Shown in pieces: positions 1,862-29,356 of a stretch of DNA of 38,848 nucleotides; the first letter of the stretch is position 1, and every line of letters starts with the position of its first letter. The notes under the pieces were generated by a model, which worked only from the letters and a program-made list of their open reading frames with translations, was not told the origin of the DNA and searched no databases. The translations under genes and the position numbers were made by a program. Where the stretch lies: the NCBI GenBank assembly GCA_030607735.1, contig JAUWJK010000003.1, forward strand, positions 1-38,848. The letters run 5' to 3'. Source of the stretch: Candidatus Bathyarchaeota archaeon. Its GTDB lineage: Archaea > Thermoproteota > Bathyarchaeia > Bathyarchaeales > Bathycorpusculaceae.

Positions 1862-2674
1862 ATGCAAACAATATTTATAGCATCAAAGGTCGTAATATCA
1901 CTAATTTTTCTACTTTTTGCATCATGGAGCGACTATAAAACAAGAGAAGTTACTAATAAAGTGTGGATTTTCTACGCCCCAATAGCTCTAGCATTATCAC
2001 TTACTGAATTCCTGCTCTATGATCCATCAAAACTAGCATATTTTGGATTAAGCGTTGGATTAACTTTTCTAATAGCTTTCTTATTATTCTACTCAGGCGG
2101 ATTTGGTGGAGCCGATTCAAAAGCATTTATGTGCATAGCCCTCGCTCTACCATTCTCAACTGAAATGCTCTTTAATCCAATATTGCCTCAAGGACTATCA
2201 CCTCTTGCACAAATTCTTTTCCCAATAGTAATCTTTAGCAATTCAGTGCTAATCGCTGCAGCAAGTGTAGGATACATCCTTCTAAGAAACATTATTCATC
2301 GCTTAAAAGAAGGAAAAGAATTCTTTGAAGGCAGTTTAAAAACAGAATCAATTGGAAAAAAGATAATCGTTCTAATTACAGGATATCGATTACCAATATC
2401 AAAATTGAAAGAAAAATGGCACATTTACCCTATGGAAGACATAGAAATAAAAAACAATGACAATCCTAAAAGAAAACTCGTTATTGTTCCCAGAGAAGAA
2501 GGAAGAAAAGAAATAATTGATCGACTCAGCGAAGGAATTGAAACAAAAAAAATCACTAACCACATTTGGGCTACTCCAGGATTACCAATGCTAATATTTG
2601 TTACAATCGGTCTAATCATAGCCATACTATTTGGAGATATTATATGGACATTGCTTAGTTATTTCCTAAGTTAA
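1862..2674 (+). CDS. Prepilin/preflagellin peptidase, family A24 (archaeal type)
   Basis: Membrane aspartic peptidase that removes class III signal peptides from pilins or archaellins. D24 in SDYKTREV and D85 in the GxGD-type motif GFGGADSK are the two expected catalytic aspartates. Hydrophobic helices run through about residue 140, then comes a charged cytosolic insert of about 90 residues, then a C-terminal helix after ATPGLP, the layout of FlaK-like archaeal enzymes. At 270 aa it is of normal length. A good SD (ttggaga, about 1845-1851) precedes ATG 1862. The neighbouring pilin is its likely substrate; others elsewhere are possible. Its last 4 nt overlap the convergent gene downstream. Confidence 0.92.
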   Translation: MQTIFIASKVVISLIFLLFASWSDYKTREVTNKVWIFYAPIALALSLTEFLLYDPSKLAYFGLSVGLTFLIAFLLFYSGGFGGADSKAFMCIALALPFSTEMLFNPILPQGLSPLAQILFPIVIFSNSVLIAAASVGYILLRNIIHRLKEGKEFFEGSLKTESIGKKIIVLITGYRLPISKLKEKWHIYPMEDIEIKNNDNPKRKLVIVPREEGRKEIIDRLSEGIETKKITNHIWATPGLPMLIFVTIGLIIAILFGDIIWTLLSYFLS

Positions 2675-2913
2675 ATTTGATAACTTTTGCTTCTCAAATT
2701 CTTGATATGCCTAGAAAAAGACACAGATGCCGTCAACATTAGAACTGAACCAATACCAACTAGAGTTAACGCATAAACTCTATACGGATAACTATTCAAA
2801 CCTAACCCTAAGGAAACATCCGATTCTATTAGTCTATAAGAGTAGAAAAAAGCACTTAAACCAAACAGAGTAATCGCTGCCAAAAGTAAACATATTTCTA
2901 TTTTATACTTCAT
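2671..2913 (-). CDS. Small two-helix membrane protein, unknown function
   Basis: 80-residue protein with two predicted membrane helices, about residues 5-27 and 46-66, a short loop between them and a basic tail. No family recognised. It looks real because a strong SD (cttaaggagt, complement of about 2923-2932) stands at the right distance from ATG 2913, and the hydrophobic pattern is not a shadow of another gene. It converges on the prepilin peptidase gene with a 4-nt overlap. A link to the pilus apparatus is only a guess from position. Confidence 0.6.
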   Translation of the reverse strand: MKYKIEICLLLAAITLFGLSAFFYSYRLIESDVSLGLGLNSYPYRVYALTLVGIGSVLMLTASVSFSRHIKNLRSKSYQI

Positions 2914-3022
2914 TTTTTTTTAACTCCTTAAGGATACCCTGCAAAGTTCATCTTAGTGTCCACTGTAACTTAGAAAAGGTTATTTTAGCTTTTTGTAAGA
3001 TAATACTAAAAGGGGTTTTTAA

Positions 3023-4099
3023 TTGTCGATAGAAGAAAACAAATTTGAATTGATAAATTTTTTAAAAAAAGAGTATAAAAAACCCAAAGTAGTTGTTATG
3101 CCAGACTTCTTCTTTGATCGAATCGTCAATTTAAAAGATAATCCTGAGAATGTTTCGTTAAAAATAAATAAAATAATTAAGCAAAGTGGAGGAAGTCTTG
3201 ATGGAATTTCACAAATGGATCTTAAAGGAGGAAACGCCATTAATACAGCCTCGGCTCTTATTGCCCTGGGAGCTAAGGTTACACCTATAGTTTGTACAAA
3301 CGAGCATGGATTTAATAAAATCAGATCTCACCTAAAAAATGCGCCAATTGATTTCTCACATATTAAAATAGGTAAGAAAGCGTCGTTAACAACAGCTTTA
3401 GAATTTAATGTTGAAAATAAAAAAATAAATATTATGTTAAGAGATCTTGGAGATTTGGAAAATTTTCAAGCTTCAGATCTAATTGAAGAAGATAACTTGC
3501 TCATTAAAGATGCTGATTATGTGTGTCTATTTAACTGGGCTGGGACAAAAAAACATGGAACAGAACTTGCTAAAGAAGTGTTTTCTATGGTAAAGAAAAA
3601 TGGAAAAGGAAAAACCTACTATGATACTGCAGATCCTAACTCAAATGTTAAAGAAATTCCAAAACTAATGGAGATTGTTTTAAAATCTAATTTTGTAGAT
3701 ATTTTAAGTCTCAATGAGAATGAAGCAATAAGCTACGCCTCTTTAATGGATAAACAAGTACTAAAGAAGGGTAGAGAAAGAAACACGAAATTAGCGTTAT
3801 ATGCTGCTAAAGTTTTAGCTGAAAAATTAACTGCTAGAATTGATCTTCACACATCTTCGTTCTCAGCGTCAATAACTAAGAAAAAAGAAACAAACATTTC
3901 AACTTTTAACATTAAACCTCTCAGAGCTACAGGCGCTGGAGATGCATGGAATGCAGGAAATATTCTTGCTGACATGAACTTACTATCTGATGGAAGGAGA
4001 TTAATGTTAGCCAATGCAATATCAGCATGTTACCTTACTGACCCAAATGGCAACTATCCAAATCAAGATAGACTTATTGAATTTCTTGAAAAAAATTAA
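3023..4099 (+). CDS. PfkB-family carbohydrate kinase
   Basis: Ribokinase-like sugar or nucleoside kinase of 358 aa. The N-terminal GGNAINTASALIALG stretch is the PfkB substrate-side Gly-rich motif. ATGAGDAWNAGN near the C-terminus is the PfkB signature, with D307 as the catalytic base. The substrate cannot be read from sequence. The TTG start at 3023 is supported by aaaagggg at 3008-3014, and the only other starts are well inside the fold. A TATA-like TATTTTA lies near 2981. It sits upstream of GlmM and GlmU but has its own promoter region and is followed by a T7 run near 4135, so co-transcription is not implied. Confidence 0.85.
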   Translation: MSIEENKFELINFLKKEYKKPKVVVMPDFFFDRIVNLKDNPENVSLKINKIIKQSGGSLDGISQMDLKGGNAINTASALIALGAKVTPIVCTNEHGFNKIRSHLKNAPIDFSHIKIGKKASLTTALEFNVENKKINIMLRDLGDLENFQASDLIEEDNLLIKDADYVCLFNWAGTKKHGTELAKEVFSMVKKNGKGKTYYDTADPNSNVKEIPKLMEIVLKSNFVDILSLNENEAISYASLMDKQVLKKGRERNTKLALYAAKVLAEKLTARIDLHTSSFSASITKKKETNISTFNIKPLRATGAGDAWNAGNILADMNLLSDGRRLMLANAISACYLTDPNGNYPNQDRLIEFLEKN

Positions 4100-4199: not shown

Positions 4200-5555
4200 T
4201 TGGGTAAACTATTTGGTAGTTCAGGAGTACGAGGTATAGTTAACAGTTTTTTAACACCAGAAAAAGCATGCAGTGTTAGTTTAGCTGTAGCCTCTTATTC
4301 TCAAGCAAAGAAAGCCATTATTGGTAGAGATACAAGATTTTCAGGTTTAATGTTGCAAGAAGCTCTGATTTCAGGCTTATTATCTTGTGGAGTCGATGTT
4401 AAAGTATTGGATATTGTTCCGACACCTGTTGTAGCATATCTTACAAAGGAATTGGGGGCCAACATAGGATTTATGTTAACTGCATCACATAATCCATCTC
4501 AATATAATGGAATAAAAATTTTTGATAAAAACGGTATTTCTTATTCAGATGAACAACAACAAAGTATTGAAAAAAGAATTCAAGAAAAAAATTATCGTTT
4601 AGCAGATTGGAAAAATGTGGGAAAATGCACAAAAACAGATGCTACACATCTTTATTTCGAAAAGCTAAAAAAAATTGTAAATCTTCAAAAAAAATGGAAG
4701 ATTATCGTGGATCCGGGGTGTGGAGCTACTTTTAGTGTTGGTCCAAAATTGCTAAAAGCTAGTGGATGTAAAGTGACCGTTCTAAACGCTCAACCAGATG
4801 GAAATTTTCCAGCAAGGGCATCTGAACCTACAAAAAAATCCCTTAGAGATTTAGCACTAATTGTTAAAGCTCTAAGTTCGGATATTGGAATAGCTTTTGA
4901 TGGAGATGGAGATAGAGTAGCTTTTATTGATAACGATGGAAAATTTGCAGATTTTGATAGAGTATTAGCTGCTTTTGCGGGTTATGTTTTACAAAAAAAT
5001 GGTGGAGGGACAGTCGTCACCAATGTTGAGACTTCAATGTGTTTTGAGAAAATAGCTAAAGGACATAATGGAAAAGTTATCAGAACAAAAGTTGGAGATG
5101 TTTATCTTTCTGAAGCAATAAAAAAGAATAACGCTATTTTTGGTGGAGAACCATGTGGTGCTTGGATACATCCCCAAGTTCATTATTGTCCCGATGGTCC
5201 TCTCTCAGCAAAATTATTGTTAAAAGCTCTAGAAGAGAAAAAAGTCACCTTAAATGAGTTCATTTCTGAAGTTCCCAAATTTATAACTTTAAGAGAAAAC
5301 ATTCAGTGCAATAACAAGAATAAAACCAAAATAGTAAAGAGTATAGAACAAAAAATGAAAAAAGTTTTTCCTAACCTCATAGAAACCTCAATGGTTGATG
5401 GAATCAGAATATCATTAGAAAATGGTTGGCTTCTAATTCGAGCATCAGGAACTGAACCTATCATTCGGTTAACAGTTGAAGGTGAATCATTAAAAATAGC
5501 AACTAGCATAGTTGAAAGAGGAAATAAGTTAATAAAAGAAAACAGTGAGGTTTGA
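4200..5555 (+). CDS. glmM: Phosphoglucosamine mutase (alpha-D-phosphohexomutase family)
   Basis: Interconverts glucosamine-6-phosphate and glucosamine-1-phosphate for UDP-GlcNAc synthesis; archaeal members may also act on other hexose phosphates. All four family motifs are present: phosphoserine S96 in TASHNPSQYNG, the metal loop D234-G-D-G-D-R, the sugar loop GGEPCGAW, and the phosphate loop RASGTEPIIR near the C-terminus. Length 451 aa is normal. TTG 4200 is supported by gggag at 4182-4186 and by the family-typical beginning GKLFGSSGVRG. The GlmU-like gene follows 4 nt after the stop, so the two form an operon for sugar nucleotide synthesis. Confidence 0.92.
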   Translation: MGKLFGSSGVRGIVNSFLTPEKACSVSLAVASYSQAKKAIIGRDTRFSGLMLQEALISGLLSCGVDVKVLDIVPTPVVAYLTKELGANIGFMLTASHNPSQYNGIKIFDKNGISYSDEQQQSIEKRIQEKNYRLADWKNVGKCTKTDATHLYFEKLKKIVNLQKKWKIIVDPGCGATFSVGPKLLKASGCKVTVLNAQPDGNFPARASEPTKKSLRDLALIVKALSSDIGIAFDGDGDRVAFIDNDGKFADFDRVLAAFAGYVLQKNGGGTVVTNVETSMCFEKIAKGHNGKVIRTKVGDVYLSEAIKKNNAIFGGEPCGAWIHPQVHYCPDGPLSAKLLLKALEEKKVTLNEFISEVPKFITLRENIQCNNKNKTKIVKSIEQKMKKVFPNLIETSMVDGIRISLENGWLLIRASGTEPIIRLTVEGESLKIATSIVERGNKLIKENSEV

Positions 5556-5559
5556 ATCA

Positions 5560-6837
5560 ATGAAAGCGGTAATCTTAGCTGCAGGAGAAGGAAAAAGACT
5601 TGGACCTATCACATCCTCTAGACCTAAACCCATGATAAAAATTAGTGGAAAACCAATTCTTGACCATATTATTGAAGCACTAAGTTATTCTGAAGTTACA
5701 GAGGTAATAATTGTAACTAATTATAGAGGAGAGGCCATTCGAGAATATTTTAAAAGCTTAAAAAAATCTAATTTAAAAATTAGTTTTAAAAAGCAAGAAA
5801 AAATGATTGGAACTGGAAATGCATTAAGTATAACTGAATCAATGATAAATGACGATTTTATCGTAGTTTATGGTGATCAACTTTTCAGTTCAGATGCATT
5901 AAAAAAAATTATACAAACTTTTAAAACAGAAAAAGTGGATGGAGCGATGGCAGTAATTCCAGTAAAAAATCCTGAAAATTATGGGATTGTAGAAGTGGAT
6001 AGAGAACAAAAAGTAAAAAGAATAATTGAAAAGCCTGATCTTAAAAGTGCTCCTTCAAATTTAGCAAATGCAGGATTGTATGTATTCTCCAAAGAAATTT
6101 TTAGACAAATTAAACAAGTAAAACCATCAATTAGAGGGGAATACGAACTAACAGAAGCAATATCTCTTTTCATTAAAGATGGAAAACAAATTGAAGCAGT
6201 AAAAATCTCTAATAATGACTGGTTGGATATTGGCAGACCTTGGGATTTATTGGAAGCTAACAAATGGATCTTAGAGAGAATAAAGCATGAAGTTTGTGGA
6301 ATTGTTGAAGAAGGCGCTCGATTAATAGGTCAAGTAACATTAGCTAAAAACGCGAGAATACGTTCAGGGGCTTATATTGAAGGTCCAGCTTTTATTGACG
6401 AAGGTAGTGATATTGGACCTAATTGCTATATAAGACCACATACAAGTATTGGAAAAAATGTTCGAATTGGAAACGCTTGTGAAATAAAAAATTCGATTGT
6501 TATGGATAAAACGCATGTAGGTCATTTATCTTATGTTGGCGATAGTATTCTTTGTGAAAGCTGTAACTTAGGAGCGGGAACAATTATCGCTAATTATCGT
6601 TTTGATGCCAAATCAGTAAAAATGAAAGTACTAAATAAAATAATTAACAGCGGAAGAAGGAAACTCGGGGCTATCTTAGGAGATAATGTGAAAACTGGTA
6701 TTCACTCAATTCTTATGCCGGGAGTCAAAGTAGGAAAGAATAGTTGGATAGGCGTAAACTACGTTGTAGAAAGAGACATTCCGGCTAACACGTATGCTGT
6801 TCAAAAACAAAGGGTAAAAAAAAGTAACAAACCTTAA
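5560..6837 (+). CDS. glmU: Bifunctional sugar-1-phosphate nucleotidyltransferase / acetyltransferase (GlmU-like)
   Basis: Predicted to acetylate GlcN-1-P and couple it to UTP (or dTTP), completing UDP-GlcNAc. The N-terminal domain (about 1-225) has LAAGEGKRLGPITSSRPKPM, the nucleotidyltransferase signature. The C-terminal half is a left-handed beta-helix of hexapeptide repeats. H322 in VGHLSYVGDS matches the catalytic His of GlmU acetyltransferases, and GAGTIIANY follows as expected. ATG 5560 is preferred over the GTG at 5545, because GTGAGG at 5545-5550 is itself a good SD with correct spacing and the protein then begins MKAVILAAG. Directly downstream of glmM in one operon. Confidence 0.9.
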   Translation: MKAVILAAGEGKRLGPITSSRPKPMIKISGKPILDHIIEALSYSEVTEVIIVTNYRGEAIREYFKSLKKSNLKISFKKQEKMIGTGNALSITESMINDDFIVVYGDQLFSSDALKKIIQTFKTEKVDGAMAVIPVKNPENYGIVEVDREQKVKRIIEKPDLKSAPSNLANAGLYVFSKEIFRQIKQVKPSIRGEYELTEAISLFIKDGKQIEAVKISNNDWLDIGRPWDLLEANKWILERIKHEVCGIVEEGARLIGQVTLAKNARIRSGAYIEGPAFIDEGSDIGPNCYIRPHTSIGKNVRIGNACEIKNSIVMDKTHVGHLSYVGDSILCESCNLGAGTIIANYRFDAKSVKMKVLNKIINSGRRKLGAILGDNVKTGIHSILMPGVKVGKNSWIGVNYVVERDIPANTYAVQKQRVKKSNKP

Positions 6838-6873
6838 ACAGGATCTTAATTTTCACATTTTAACTAAATCAAA

Positions 6874-6882
6874 GATATATAG
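6874..6882 (+). promoter_or_regulatory. TATA box for the Lsm gene
   Basis: gatatatag at 6874-6882 lies about 30 nt before the SD (acggag, about 6907-6912), which suggests a very short leader. Confidence 0.5.
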
Positions 6883-6920
6883 TGGTACTGTAATTTTGTT
6901 ATTGTAACGGAGATTTGAAG

Positions 6921-7337
6921 TTGTCTGTAGCACAAAGAAAATTTTTTAGTGAAGTCGCAGCATTGATAGAAAAACCCGTGATCGTGGAAGCGACTAATGG
7001 AAAGAAATTTACTGGAACCCTTATTGGAATAAATCCTGAAAGTCTAAATCTTTGTATTGCTGAAGCAAAAGATGAAACAGGTCAAATGGCTCACAGGGTT
7101 TTCTTAAGTGGAAATGTTGTTGCACAAATTTCAAGCACTGAAAAACCCTTTGATTTAAAAGCCCTAGCTAATCGTCTCGAAAAAGTATTTCCAACCATGG
7201 TTAAACTCTATGACGATAAAGGATTCATTTGGATAATGAATAAAATAAAACTAACTGAAAAAGGTGTAGTTGAAGGTTCAGGTCCAGCTGCTGAAAGAGT
7301 ACAAAGAGTATATGATCAGTTTGCAAGTGAAGAATAA
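6921..7337 (+). CDS. Lsm (Sm-like archaeal) RNA-binding protein with extra C-terminal domain
   Basis: Sm-fold RNA-binding protein. Residues about 1-75 carry the Sm1-type pattern (PVIVEATNGKKFTGTLIGINPESLNLCI) and Sm2-type pattern (HRVFLSGNVVAQI). An added C-terminal domain of about 60 residues resembles the two-domain SmAP3-type proteins of crenarchaea. Such proteins form rings that bind U-rich or small RNAs. TTG 6921 is chosen because the SD ggag (6909-6912) is then 8 nt away; TTG 6915 would leave only 2 nt. It converges with the PAC2 gene with a 3-nt gap. Confidence 0.85.
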   Translation: MSVAQRKFFSEVAALIEKPVIVEATNGKKFTGTLIGINPESLNLCIAEAKDETGQMAHRVFLSGNVVAQISSTEKPFDLKALANRLEKVFPTMVKLYDDKGFIWIMNKIKLTEKGVVEGSGPAAERVQRVYDQFASEE

Positions 7338-24485: not shown

Positions 24486-25277
24486 ATGATTCCTATAGAA
24501 ACTATAGTACTTGGATTTGTTCAAGGAGTTACAGAATGGATACCAGTATCAAGCACAGGTCATTTAAGAATAGCAGAGTATTTCTTGGGCTTAGAGTTAC
24601 CATTATTTTTTGATTTAATCCTCCATATCGGCACCCTTATAGTAACTCTTTTTTTCTTCCGAGTAGATATTAAAAAGATTATTTATTCAGTTTATAAATG
24701 GGAATTTAAAACAGAAAATGGAAAAATGGTTCCATTAATCATTATCGGAACTATTCCAATTGCCTTAATAGGTTTATTATTTAACAATTTAATTGATTTA
24801 TATTTTCACGATATTTCAACCATTGCAATAGCGTATATCTTCTGTGGAATAATGTTATTTTTTTCAAAATATGGCAATGGGAAAAAAAATAAACTGGGTT
24901 ACTATGAAGCATTGCAAATAGGTATTGCTCAAGGGGTTGCAATAATCCCAGGAATATCAAGAAGCGGCTTAACAATTGCAGTGGCATTATTACTAGGATT
25001 AAAACAAGAAATTTCTTTCAAGTTTTCTTTTTTACTCTCAATTCCTGCAATAATAGGCGCTTTTAGTTACACGTTTTTTAACCAAAGAGAAGCTCTAAAT
25101 CTTGCCGGTTTAGACATAATTGAAATCTCCGCAGGAATAATTGTCTCGATAATAGTAGGGTATTTTTCATTAATAATTCTAAAGAAAAGTTTAATTATTA
25201 AAAAATTTTATTTATTTGCGTTTTATTGTTGGTTTTTGAGCATTATTTTAATTCTTTTAACAATAATAGGATTTTAA
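24486..25277 (+). CDS. uppP: Undecaprenyl-diphosphatase family protein (UppP/BacA-like)
   Basis: 263-aa integral membrane phosphatase that recycles polyprenyl diphosphate carriers; in archaea the lipid is probably dolichyl-type. QGVTEWIPVSSTGHL (Q13, E17, S22-H26) and PGISRSG (155-161, R159) are the two catalytic motifs of PF02673. About eight membrane helices. It supports N-glycan or surface polysaccharide synthesis. It follows the tandem-SIS gene by 21 nt and its last 21 nt overlap the convergent cca gene. Confidence 0.92.
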   Translation: MIPIETIVLGFVQGVTEWIPVSSTGHLRIAEYFLGLELPLFFDLILHIGTLIVTLFFFRVDIKKIIYSVYKWEFKTENGKMVPLIIIGTIPIALIGLLFNNLIDLYFHDISTIAIAYIFCGIMLFFSKYGNGKKNKLGYYEALQIGIAQGVAIIPGISRSGLTIAVALLLGLKQEISFKFSFLLSIPAIIGAFSYTFFNQREALNLAGLDIIEISAGIIVSIIVGYFSLIILKKSLIIKKFYLFAFYCWFLSIILILLTIIGF

Positions 25278-26684
25278 CCAAGAAGGTTTGCCAATAAGAA
25301 AGCTAGTAATAAAAGCAGCAAAATCAGGATTATCATGATATAAAGCAACAATTTCATTATTAATAAAAATTCTAAGGTTTTCTTTGATTGCTTTTAAAAT
25401 CAAATTTGGAAATCCAATATTTTTATTATCCGTTAATAATTTTTCCTCTAAAAGACTAACTGCATTCGAATAAATTCGATTAAGAAGTATGGTCCATCTG
25501 TTGTTTTGTATGAAAGGTCCGGATATTACTGAGGTATTGTTTACATATTTTAACAAGAAAGTAATACTTTGTTCATTGAATTCTAGAGGAGGCCCAAAAT
25601 GCTGTTTTATTTTTGGTAAAATATGTGTTTCAACCTCAATAATAAATACAATGAGAGATTTTTCATCAGACCAAATAGCATTTTGTAAGATAGTAAAGTC
25701 ATTATTTGTTAATAATTTTATTAACGATTTTTGAGTTTTAAAAAGTTGGCCCCATAATACATCTGGAACCGCATGTATATTATTTAGCTGAATAAACAGA
25801 ATCGAAGATCCTCGATTTTCAAACTTAGATAACAAAGTATCCTTCGAAAAGATTTTTATCTTTTTAGGAAAGAAGAAATCTTTATTTGGTTTCCTAAGAA
25901 ATGCTCTTGTAGCACCAACTAACTCATAGAGTGTTTCTGAAGTAAGTGCGGAGGCAACATTTCGATTTTTATCTACAGGATCGATCACTATTAAAGGATC
26001 AGAAAAAAGCAAAACTAAGTCTACTTTTTTTTCTTTATAAAAATTTTTCAGGTCTATAATGATAGGTTTTTTATAGTTTGAAAAAGCTTCAAGAGTTTTG
26101 ATAAAAGAGCGATAATGTAATATTAATAATTCACAAAGATAACCACTAAAACCACCAGTCTTTATTTCAGCACCATAAACATTTATTCCTTTAAAGAATT
26201 TCTTTAGTAGTCGAACTTGGTTTTTTAATTCTTGATTTAAGTGTTTTCTAACATATTTTGAATGATATGGTGTTCTATCGGTTGCACTTTTCCAGTTACC
26301 AATATCTACCTGATAACAGGGAACTATATTCACGCGAACATCGTTTATAAAAGCTTCAAGGTACGGATGTTCTGCATATCTCTGAACCTGTTTAGAGCCT
26401 TTTGTAGCTTTTTTTGCTATTTTTAAGATATCTTCACCAAAATTTTCTTTAGGTATTGTTATGGGTAAACGAATAAAAACATCAATATCTGGATCGTCTA
26501 GTAGCCAAGTATCTTTAGCTATTGAACCTTCAATACCTATTGTAGCTTCAATACCAGCTTTTTCACATTCTATTGCAAGTTTTTTTTCAAGTTCTTGAGA
26601 TAAAGTTTCGATTTTTTTTCTATCCGATTCCCGAGGTACAATATCAGCTAGAACTTGATTTATTATTGGAATTAATTTTTCCAT
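25257..26684 (-). CDS. cca: Archaeal class I CCA-adding tRNA nucleotidyltransferase, variant active site
   Basis: Adds or repairs the 3' CCA of tRNA. 475 aa with GSIAKDTWLLDDPDIDVF (G53-F70), the nucleotidyltransferase core, then RYAEHPYLEAF, VPCYQV, and GGFSGYLCELLIL. The first two carboxylates are D66 and D68 (E59 and D61 in Archaeoglobus). The third, D110 there (EVDVVPCY), is N119 here (RVNIVPCY; codon AAT at 26330-26328). That residue normally binds catalytic metal. The gene is otherwise intact. SD gaggt (about 26695-26699) sits in the end of thpR, 5 nt upstream, so the two are an operon. Confidence 0.93.
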   Translation of the reverse strand: MEKLIPIINQVLADIVPRESDRKKIETLSQELEKKLAIECEKAGIEATIGIEGSIAKDTWLLDDPDIDVFIRLPITIPKENFGEDILKIAKKATKGSKQVQRYAEHPYLEAFINDVRVNIVPCYQVDIGNWKSATDRTPYHSKYVRKHLNQELKNQVRLLKKFFKGINVYGAEIKTGGFSGYLCELLILHYRSFIKTLEAFSNYKKPIIIDLKNFYKEKKVDLVLLFSDPLIVIDPVDKNRNVASALTSETLYELVGATRAFLRKPNKDFFFPKKIKIFSKDTLLSKFENRGSSILFIQLNNIHAVPDVLWGQLFKTQKSLIKLLTNNDFTILQNAIWSDEKSLIVFIIEVETHILPKIKQHFGPPLEFNEQSITFLLKYVNNTSVISGPFIQNNRWTILLNRIYSNAVSLLEEKLLTDNKNIGFPNLILKAIKENLRIFINNEIVALYHDNPDFAAFITSFLIGKPSWLKSYYC

Positions 26685-26689
26685 ATTGT

Positions 26690-27262
26690 TTAAACCTCAA
26701 CTTTTGAATAGAATTTTTTAATAGTTGTATAGAATGGTCCAGTTGGCATTAATTCACTTTTTTTCAATTGGATGCAATTTAGGTTTACGGTACCAATTCT
26801 GTATTCAACATAATTTTTTAAAAAAGTTGTTAATTGATCGTTATTCTTACCATATTTGACTCTAGCAAGGGTAAGATGGGGTGAAAAACCTTTATAATCC
26901 GGATTAAAACCCAGTTGTCTTAATTGAATCTCAATTTGATCGAATATATTGTTCATTTTTTTTGTTCCTTCAGCAATTCCAGCCCAAATAATTCGTGGAG
27001 AATATAAATTCGGGAAAACGCCTATTCCTTTGAGTTCTATAGAAAAGGAAGTAAATATGATTTTTTGCATCTTTACTGAAACTTTTTCAATTAAATCAGT
27101 ATTGATATTTCCTAAAAATCTGAGTGTAAAATGTAGGTTCTGCTGGTTTATAATTTTAAGATTAGTACCTGTCTTGGAAATAAGTTTTTGAACATTTACT
27201 AATTTCCTTAATATTTCATTATTTTCTAGATCAAAAGCTAAAAAACAACGAGTTGTCTTCAA
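26690..27262 (-). CDS. thpR: RNA 2',3'-cyclic phosphodiesterase (LigT/ThpR)
   Basis: 190-aa 2H phosphoesterase that opens 2',3'-cyclic phosphates; bacterial and archaeal members can also join tRNA halves in vitro. Both HxTx motifs are present: HFTLRFLG near residue 46 and HLTLARVK near residue 128. TTG 27262 is the start, with aaggga (complement of about 27270-27276) as SD. It is upstream of cca on the same strand, fitting a tRNA 3'-end processing pair: cyclic ends are opened, then CCA is added. Confidence 0.9.
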   Translation of the reverse strand: MKTTRCFLAFDLENNEILRKLVNVQKLISKTGTNLKIINQQNLHFTLRFLGNINTDLIEKVSVKMQKIIFTSFSIELKGIGVFPNLYSPRIIWAGIAEGTKKMNNIFDQIEIQLRQLGFNPDYKGFSPHLTLARVKYGKNNDQLTTFLKNYVEYRIGTVNLNCIQLKKSELMPTGPFYTTIKKFYSKVEV

Positions 27263-28324: not shown

Positions 28325-29356
28325 TTGACTTTAAGATCCAGTATATCAGATCGGGGAGCAATTTTATTAGGAAATTCAGTAGCGTGTGATGCCTTTGATG
28401 AGACCAGTCCTCTACGAGTTGTAACTCATGCACATGCTGACCATTTAGTTGGGTTAAGAAGGAGTCTAAAAAATTGCGAAAAAGTATTGATGACAAAAGC
28501 TACAAAAGACATGATTGAAGTTTTAAAGGGACCTGGCACTTTTAAGTTAGGCATTACTGAGCAACTTGAATATGGGAAATCCATTGAATATAATAATGAA
28601 AAAATTACACTCAATAAAGCAAATCACATTTTAGGGGCAGCTCAAGTATTAGTTGAAAATGAGAAAGGCAATCGAGTTGCTTATACGGGTGACTTCAAAA
28701 GTAAGGGAACAAAACCAATAGAAAATTGTGATACTTTAGTGGTTGAAGCAACTTACGGAAGTCCTTCATTTACGCGTTCATTTAATTTGGATGTAAGTGA
28801 GCTTCTTATTTCTATGATTGAAAGACGTCTCCGAAAAGGAAATGTCTATGTTTTTGGCTATTATGGAAAATTACAGGAAGTTATGCAAATACTACGATGT
28901 GCTCATGTATATGTTCCTTTTGTTATGCCCGAACAAATTTTGCGAGTTTCAGAAGTATATAAGCGGCATGGTATGAATCTTGGAGATTTAACACCCTCAA
29001 ATAATGAGAATGGAAAAGAATTATTAGAGAAAAATTTGCCGTGTGTTGCTTTTTACCATATGAATAAAAGAAAAAGTATAGGAATAAATAGCTCTCGAAT
29101 ATGTGTAAGTGGTTGGGAATTCCGTTTACCTTGTAAGCAAATTGGTAGAAATGAACATTTAATTGCATTAAGTGATCATTCTGATTTTGAAGAATTAATT
29201 GAATATATCAGACTTTCTAAACCTAAAAAAGTCATTACAGACAATTATCGAGTAAAACATGGTGAAATATTAGCTAAAGAAATAAACAAAAGACTAGGTA
29301 TACCTGCCATGGCAATGCCAAATAGAAACTGTAAACAATTAACAAATTTTTTTTAA
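28325..29356 (+). CDS. Metallo-beta-lactamase fold nuclease, beta-CASP-like
   Basis: 343-aa metal-dependent nuclease. HAHADHLVG (motif 2), a single His in KANHILGAAQ (motif 3), YTGDFKSKGT (motif 4), VVEATYG (A), LSDHSDFEEL (B) and VKHGEILAKEI (C) complete the zinc site and beta-CASP pattern. Related to CPSF73, SNM1 and ligase-associated exonucleases; whether it cuts RNA or DNA cannot be told. TTG 28325 has the SD ggaga (28313-28317). Last gene of the UPF0200-UPF0201 operon, which favours RNA. Confidence 0.87.
   Translation: MTLRSSISDRGAILLGNSVACDAFDETSPLRVVTHAHADHLVGLRRSLKNCEKVLMTKATKDMIEVLKGPGTFKLGITEQLEYGKSIEYNNEKITLNKANHILGAAQVLVENEKGNRVAYTGDFKSKGTKPIENCDTLVVEATYGSPSFTRSFNLDVSELLISMIERRLRKGNVYVFGYYGKLQEVMQILRCAHVYVPFVMPEQILRVSEVYKRHGMNLGDLTPSNNENGKELLEKNLPCVAFYHMNKRKSIGINSSRICVSGWEFRLPCKQIGRNEHLIALSDHSDFEELIEYIRLSKPKKVITDNYRVKHGEILAKEINKRLGIPAMAMPNRNCKQLTNFF

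Follow-up and report, generated by a model that had tools for sequence, protein, structure and literature searches.

The cca Locus and Its Product

The DNA considered here (the window) is a stretch of 38,848 nucleotides from a Candidatus Bathyarchaeota archaeon (GenBank assembly GCA_030607735.1, contig JAUWJK010000003.1), of which the assembly amounts to 1.6 Mb in 130 contigs and is 96.49% complete. Its minus strand carries a cca gene, directly preceded by a gene of the thpR/ligT family (Table 1). At positions 28325-29356, an ORF of metallo-beta-lactamase fold can also be found, which bears a weak likeness to ligase-associated exonuclease and beta-CASP proteins and scores under every curated NCBIfam cut-off listed.

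Table 1. Genes, codons and predicted structural elements at the cca locus, in coordinates of the window.
Feature	Positions	Strand	Basis
cca, encoding a 475-aa CCA-adding enzyme of class I (archaeal type)	25257..26684	minus	TIGR03671, PF09249, PF21133, PF01909, 1r89 alignment
Codon 131, Trp131, covarying residue	26292..26294	minus	W in 106/115 Asn119 sequences vs 14/121 others (A. fulgidus included); LR 20.0
Residues 108-124, predicted strand 4/strand 5 hairpin, turn 114-115	26313..26363	minus	Sequence reading; low-confidence domain model (pLDDT 48)
Codon 119 (AAT), Asn119 in the position of catalytic carboxylate 3 (D110 in A. fulgidus)	26328..26330	minus	Plus-strand bases ATT; alignments
Codon 117, Arg117, covarying basic residue, predicted on the same face (A. 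fulgidus E108)	26334..26336	minus	R in 90 and K in 10 of 115 Asn119 sequences; LR 19.6
Codon 110 (GAA), Glu110, candidate substitute for the lost carboxylate (H101 in A. fulgidus)	26355..26357	minus	Covariation with Asn119
Codon 68, Asp68, second catalytic carboxylate	26481..26483	minus	D in 235/235
Codon 66, Asp66, first catalytic carboxylate	26487..26489	minus	D or E in 235/235
RNA 2',3'-cyclic phosphodiesterase gene (thpR/ligT family), directly upstream of cca	26690..27262	minus	TIGR02258, 143.5 bits; PF02834

The cca product scores 426.6 bits against TIGR03671 (cca_archaeal), for which the curated cut-off is 281.3, and harbors the domains PF09249 (tRNA_NucTransf2, 138.4 bits), PF21133 (C-terminal, 85 bits) and PF01909, while the PF01743 head domain of class II enzymes is not among its Pfam families. 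According to a review, E59, D61, and D110 are the three catalytic carboxylates coordinating the Mg ion (PMC3925840). The alignment of the Archaeoglobus fulgidus enzyme (1r89) to the window protein (E 1.9e-57) brings these residues onto D66, D68, and N119, and a MAFFT alignment of 235 sequences together with A. fulgidus places the carboxylates in the same three columns. The GS motif (G53 S54) and carboxylates 1 and 2 are present, but the third carboxylate, on strand 5, is absent and N119 stands instead. The residues, the AAT codon and the coordinates 26328-26330 given for it in the original prediction are correct. By score and domains, the window protein is a class I CCA-adding enzyme, filed as a variant because the strand-5 third acid is missing, a trait shared with 114 further family members in the sample.

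The likeness to the A. fulgidus enzyme comprises the whole-length family match, the domains, the GS motif, carboxylates 1 and 2, and the residues of the hairpin region (HPY...VPCY), whereas Asn119 stands for Asp110, Glu110 for His101, and Arg117 for Glu108. In a sequence search among solved class I enzymes, seven distinct sequences match the A. fulgidus enzyme, and the five that were fully aligned here have Asp110.

Residue 119 in the Family

Homologues of cca were searched for in 60 genomes of relatives (53 with a match), 256 genomes of the class (221 with a match, 207 above the cut-off), and 398 genomes of the phylum, a set overlapping the two others (387 with a match). From 250 loci with a usable segment, 15 were removed as identical over residues 40-160 of the extracted protein, leaving 235 distinct sequences, the window included; its class (Bathyarchaeia) contributes 137 of them and the remainder of the phylum 98. 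This sample is spread across families and biased toward high scorers, fragments and unlisted matches being excluded; archaeal sampling covers the phylum of the window, with A. fulgidus as the sole outsider. A contig scan found one relative, a 90%-identical cca gene on a Candidatus Bathyarchaeota contig (L031), and no relative was found among plasmid and phage records.

Residue 119 is N, D, or E throughout the sample. Asn is found in 115 of the 235 distinct sequences: the class displays N in 99, D in 29, and E in 9 of its 137 sequences, and the rest of the phylum D in 74, N in 16, and E in 8 of 98. The 16 Asn119 sequences from outside the class span 12 family codes (f29, f33, f35, f38, f39, f43, f50, f51, f57, f58, f61, and f71). 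Glu at the place of the third carboxylate is found in 17 of the 235 sequences (e.g., L102, L103, L153, and L166). Archaeal amoA was detected in 5 of the 18 genomes tested for it (G257, G266, G422, G437, and G447), four of which are single contigs with 99% completeness. All five carry Asn119 (loci L227, L234, L231, L226, and L271), and ammonia-oxidising archaea therefore share the trait.

It had been proposed that Asn119 might come from a one-base error or a fresh mutation. That the sequence or its assembly is wrong at position 26330, or that a harmful mutation arose there recently, has a negligible probability, since Asn is common to three relatives from the same genus (L002-L004) and to 115 of the 235 sequences, which employ either of its codons (AAC in 71, AAT in 44).

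Copy Number and Probable Activity of the Asn119 Enzyme

At E<=10, only one cca homologue can be found in the source genome, and a search of this genome for a class II enzyme (PF01743) gave no match while being positive in 11 of 14 control genomes. PF01743 was likewise found in none of 37 other genomes, with 10 of 14 controls positive; Asn119 was read in 35 of these 37 genomes, and two (G102 and G104) were taken in by kinship. The source genome has five further PF01909-like nucleotidyltransferase places, the ORFs of which are without a hit to any CCA family of Pfam or NCBIfam, a helper role being conceivable for their products. On contig C17 of this genome (about 5000-7300; L083, L084, and L086), three ORFs resembling nucleotidyltransferases and 348-380 residues long are clustered, two matching PF01909 alone and the third matching nothing at 0.001.

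Regarding the substrates, CCA is encoded in 15 and not encoded in 20 of the 35 tRNA genes of the source genome (L236-L270, anchored on Infernal hits). The encoding state is thus mixed within one genome, and CCA is absent from both Lys and both Gln tRNA genes found. In one of the amoA-bearing genomes (G257), 30 of 42 tRNA hits were fetched, CCA being encoded in 5 and not in 25. The comparison of cca with its homologue in L002 (dN 0.049, dS 0.254) indicates purifying selection.

As judged from these genomic data, the Asn119 enzyme is very probably active, because it is the sole cca homologue found, no class II enzyme was found in the genome, and CCA is missing from 20 of the 35 tRNA genes. It had been expected that Asn should cripple catalysis; for this lineage, the purifying selection and the 20 tRNA genes lacking CCA are indirect evidence to the contrary. 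Nor, as far as the search extended, does the suggested second CCA enzyme appear, with one cca homologue, no PF01743 match and five other places matching no CCA family.

Alternatively, the Asn119 enzyme may be inactive or weak, the CCA ends being made by another enzyme or by split CC-adding and A-adding activities. The five additional putative nucleotidyltransferase-like places would leave room for this, as would the noncanonical PolX proteins, which have lost catalytic acids and seemingly have no polymerase activity (PMC9226535). This explanation is improbable given the single cca homologue, the absence of PF01743 matches here and in the 37 other genomes, the tRNA genes without CCA, the purifying selection and the intact state of the other catalytic residues. 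Moreover, the pattern recurs in single-contig genomes of 99% completeness such as G257, whereas the source assembly is 96.5% complete.

Covariation of Glu110 with Asn119

Glu110 is found in 114 of the 115 Asn119 sequences vs. 35 of the 120 sequences with an acid at 119, where position 110 is often R, T, Q, or K. The sole Asn119 sequence without Glu110 (L216) has Thr110; no other Asn119 sequence has Glu117, as this one does. Trees were built either without columns 117-120 or without columns 110-120, with 12 and 11 Asn/acid changes, respectively. The test of dependent evolution between Glu110 and Asn119 gives LR 48.8 on the IQ-TREE tree and 43.9 on the FastTree tree, values that, as in all such tree tests, can be inflated by changes clustered in few clades. 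Glu110 ranks first of 224 columns in the tree-based test, the runner-up being Arg102 (LR 21.1). The fitted rate of Glu110 loss is 0 in the presence of Asn119, and 1.3 and 0.98 in its absence. Among simulated histories of Glu110 alone in which the Glu count exceeds the observed one by no more than 10, 0 of 14442 and 0 of 14231 reach 114/115; once this condition is lifted, the observed value is reached in 103 and 195 of 20000 simulations.

Measures of other kinds can be set beside the tree tests. By mutual information, the pair 110:119 ranks 9th (20 letters) or 6th (residue classes) of 10731 pairs. A column scan over independent pairs has at its top positions 117 (Arg), 112 (aromatic), 143 (acid), and 110 (Glu), Glu110 agreeing in 4.3 and opposing in 0.0. 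In the strict test on 10 independent pairs, Glu110 goes with Asn119 in 2.9, against it in 0.0, and is the same on both sides in 7.1, the median p being 0.25; about three pairs are informative, all in the expected direction and too few for significance. A compensated active site was among the explanations originally offered for Asn119; the strong covariation with Glu110 speaks for it, short of proof of compensation.

Glu110 is not the only residue concerned. Arg102, Trp131, and Arg117 also covary with Asn119 (LR 21.1, 20.0, and 19.6, respectively), and the pair 110:117 covaries strongly as well. Since R102, W131, and R117 covary, and the scan over pairs adds positions 112 and 143, it is a network of residues, rather than a single pair, that changes together in the alignment. 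Arg102 and Trp131 covary with Glu110 as well as with Asn119. Position 143 is not the answer for the window enzyme, because this enzyme has Lys143.

Two further columns were considered and set aside. Column 408, at first the runner-up to Glu110 in the tree-based scan (LR 35.4), has counts without association and falls to LR 8.7 with more starts, i.e., an optimisation artefact; this refit covered columns 408, 110, 102, 131, and 117. Glu52, just before the GS motif, was suggested as the compensating acid by the first loci, being frequent in the family of the window, with a dependent-evolution test at LR 10.2 (p 0.04). It was dropped on the wider set and is a very unlikely candidate, as other Asn119 sequences have Q, G, N, or a gap at position 52, and as an acid at this position agrees in 0.7 and disagrees in 2.6 of the independent pairs (1.1 and 1.8 on the second tree).

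A Proposed Third Carboxylate from the Neighboring Strand

In the polymerase-beta-like nucleotidyltransferase fold, as described in a recent survey, the order of the strands is 3-4-5-2-1 and the third acid is on strand 5 (PMC11646218), strand 4 being thus the other neighbor of strand 5. The segment H106-Y124 can be read as a hairpin that turns over residues 114 and 115, with the pairs 113:116, 112:117, 111:118, and 110:119. A low-confidence AlphaFold model of the first 150 residues has strands at 109-113 and 116-127 with a pLDDT of 48, and the model of the window protein with L031, likewise unreliable, a pLDDT of 32. On this reading of the sequence, position 110 is the predicted cross-strand neighbor of 119, on the same face. 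With such a direct pairing in a sheet, the carboxylate of a Glu facing residue 119 could come to lie approximately where that of Asp119 would be.

Because Asn119 is nearly always joined by a Glu predicted to lie right beside it, the lost acid has probably been replaced from the neighboring strand, rather than the gene being dead or the sequence wrong. The reading favored here, to which a probability of roughly 0.6 can be given, is that of a working, single-copy class I CCA-adding enzyme with a relocated third catalytic carboxylate, Glu110 being the candidate catalytic group. Strands 4 (about Y108-I113) and 5 (about V116-Y124) would form the hairpin that puts residue 110 opposite residue 119, and the longer side chain of Glu110 would reach the place of the lost Asp carboxylate. 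There, Glu110 might either bind the catalytic metal or accept the proton of the tRNA 3'-OH, while Asn119 would remain as a neutral neighbor or ligand and Arg117 may anchor Glu110.

Regarding the history of the family, Glu110 probably arose alongside Asp119, freeing the latter to change to Asn, and where Asp came back, Glu110 could be lost again. That the third acid has moved from strand to strand repeatedly and reversibly, that many Bathyarchaeia and the sampled ammonia oxidisers rely on Asp-Asp-Glu while Asn occupies the former position, and that living intermediates hold both acids, appears slightly better than an even proposition.

The main competing hypothesis is that two carboxylates suffice, D66 and D68 alone ensuring catalysis, with Asn119 as a neutral ligand or spacer and Glu110 and Arg117 forming a structural salt bridge. 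The strong 110:117 covariation and the lack of Glu110 in L216 are in agreement with it, as are the RelA/SpoT synthetases, which share the fold while lacking one of the three acids (PMC11646218). Yet Glu110 is kept more strictly than Arg117 (114 vs. 90 of 115), and position 119 is restricted to N, D, and E in all 235 sequences, so that this hypothesis is a possible but distinctly less probable one, and the relocated carboxylate remains the preferred reading.

Comparison with Related Nucleotidyltransferases

Among enzymes of the same fold, the survey describes three acidic residues as universally conserved, yet with RelA/SpoT lacking one (PMC11646218). These synthetases resemble the window enzyme in this respect but catalyze another reaction, and the survey passages concerned make no mention of a covarying replacement. 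The class II (bacterial/eukaryotic) CCA-adding enzymes (PF01743) have the reaction and the nucleotidyltransferase fold in common with the window enzyme, as stated in the review (PMC3925840), whereas their sequence family differs and is without a match in the source genome. In the noncanonical PolX proteins, of the same superfamily, catalytic acids are also replaced; these proteins combine deletions with a seeming lack of polymerase activity (PMC9226535), whereas in the family of the window acids 1 and 2 are intact in 235/235 sequences and a neighboring residue covaries. Utp22, a class I relative with degenerate catalytic residues, is thought to be inactive, according to a passage of another report (PMC3794860). 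In the open-access literature, among the papers listed, no report was found of Asn at the third-carboxylate place of class I CCA enzymes.

A large archaeal group appears to dispense with the third acid in an essential, single-copy enzyme, and the covarying neighbor provides a precise prediction. If the relocation is true, the natural series formed by Asp only, Asp with Glu, and Asn with Glu would illustrate how a catalytic residue can change place while function is kept, and the lack of a third acid would not by itself suffice to call a nucleotidyltransferase dead. A putative viral contig (IMG/VR, 37.7 kb; L321, positions 1899-3182) also encodes a CCA-adding enzyme of class I, which shares 34% identity with that of the window; by eye, it has His at position 110 and Asp at position 119, as in A. 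fulgidus.
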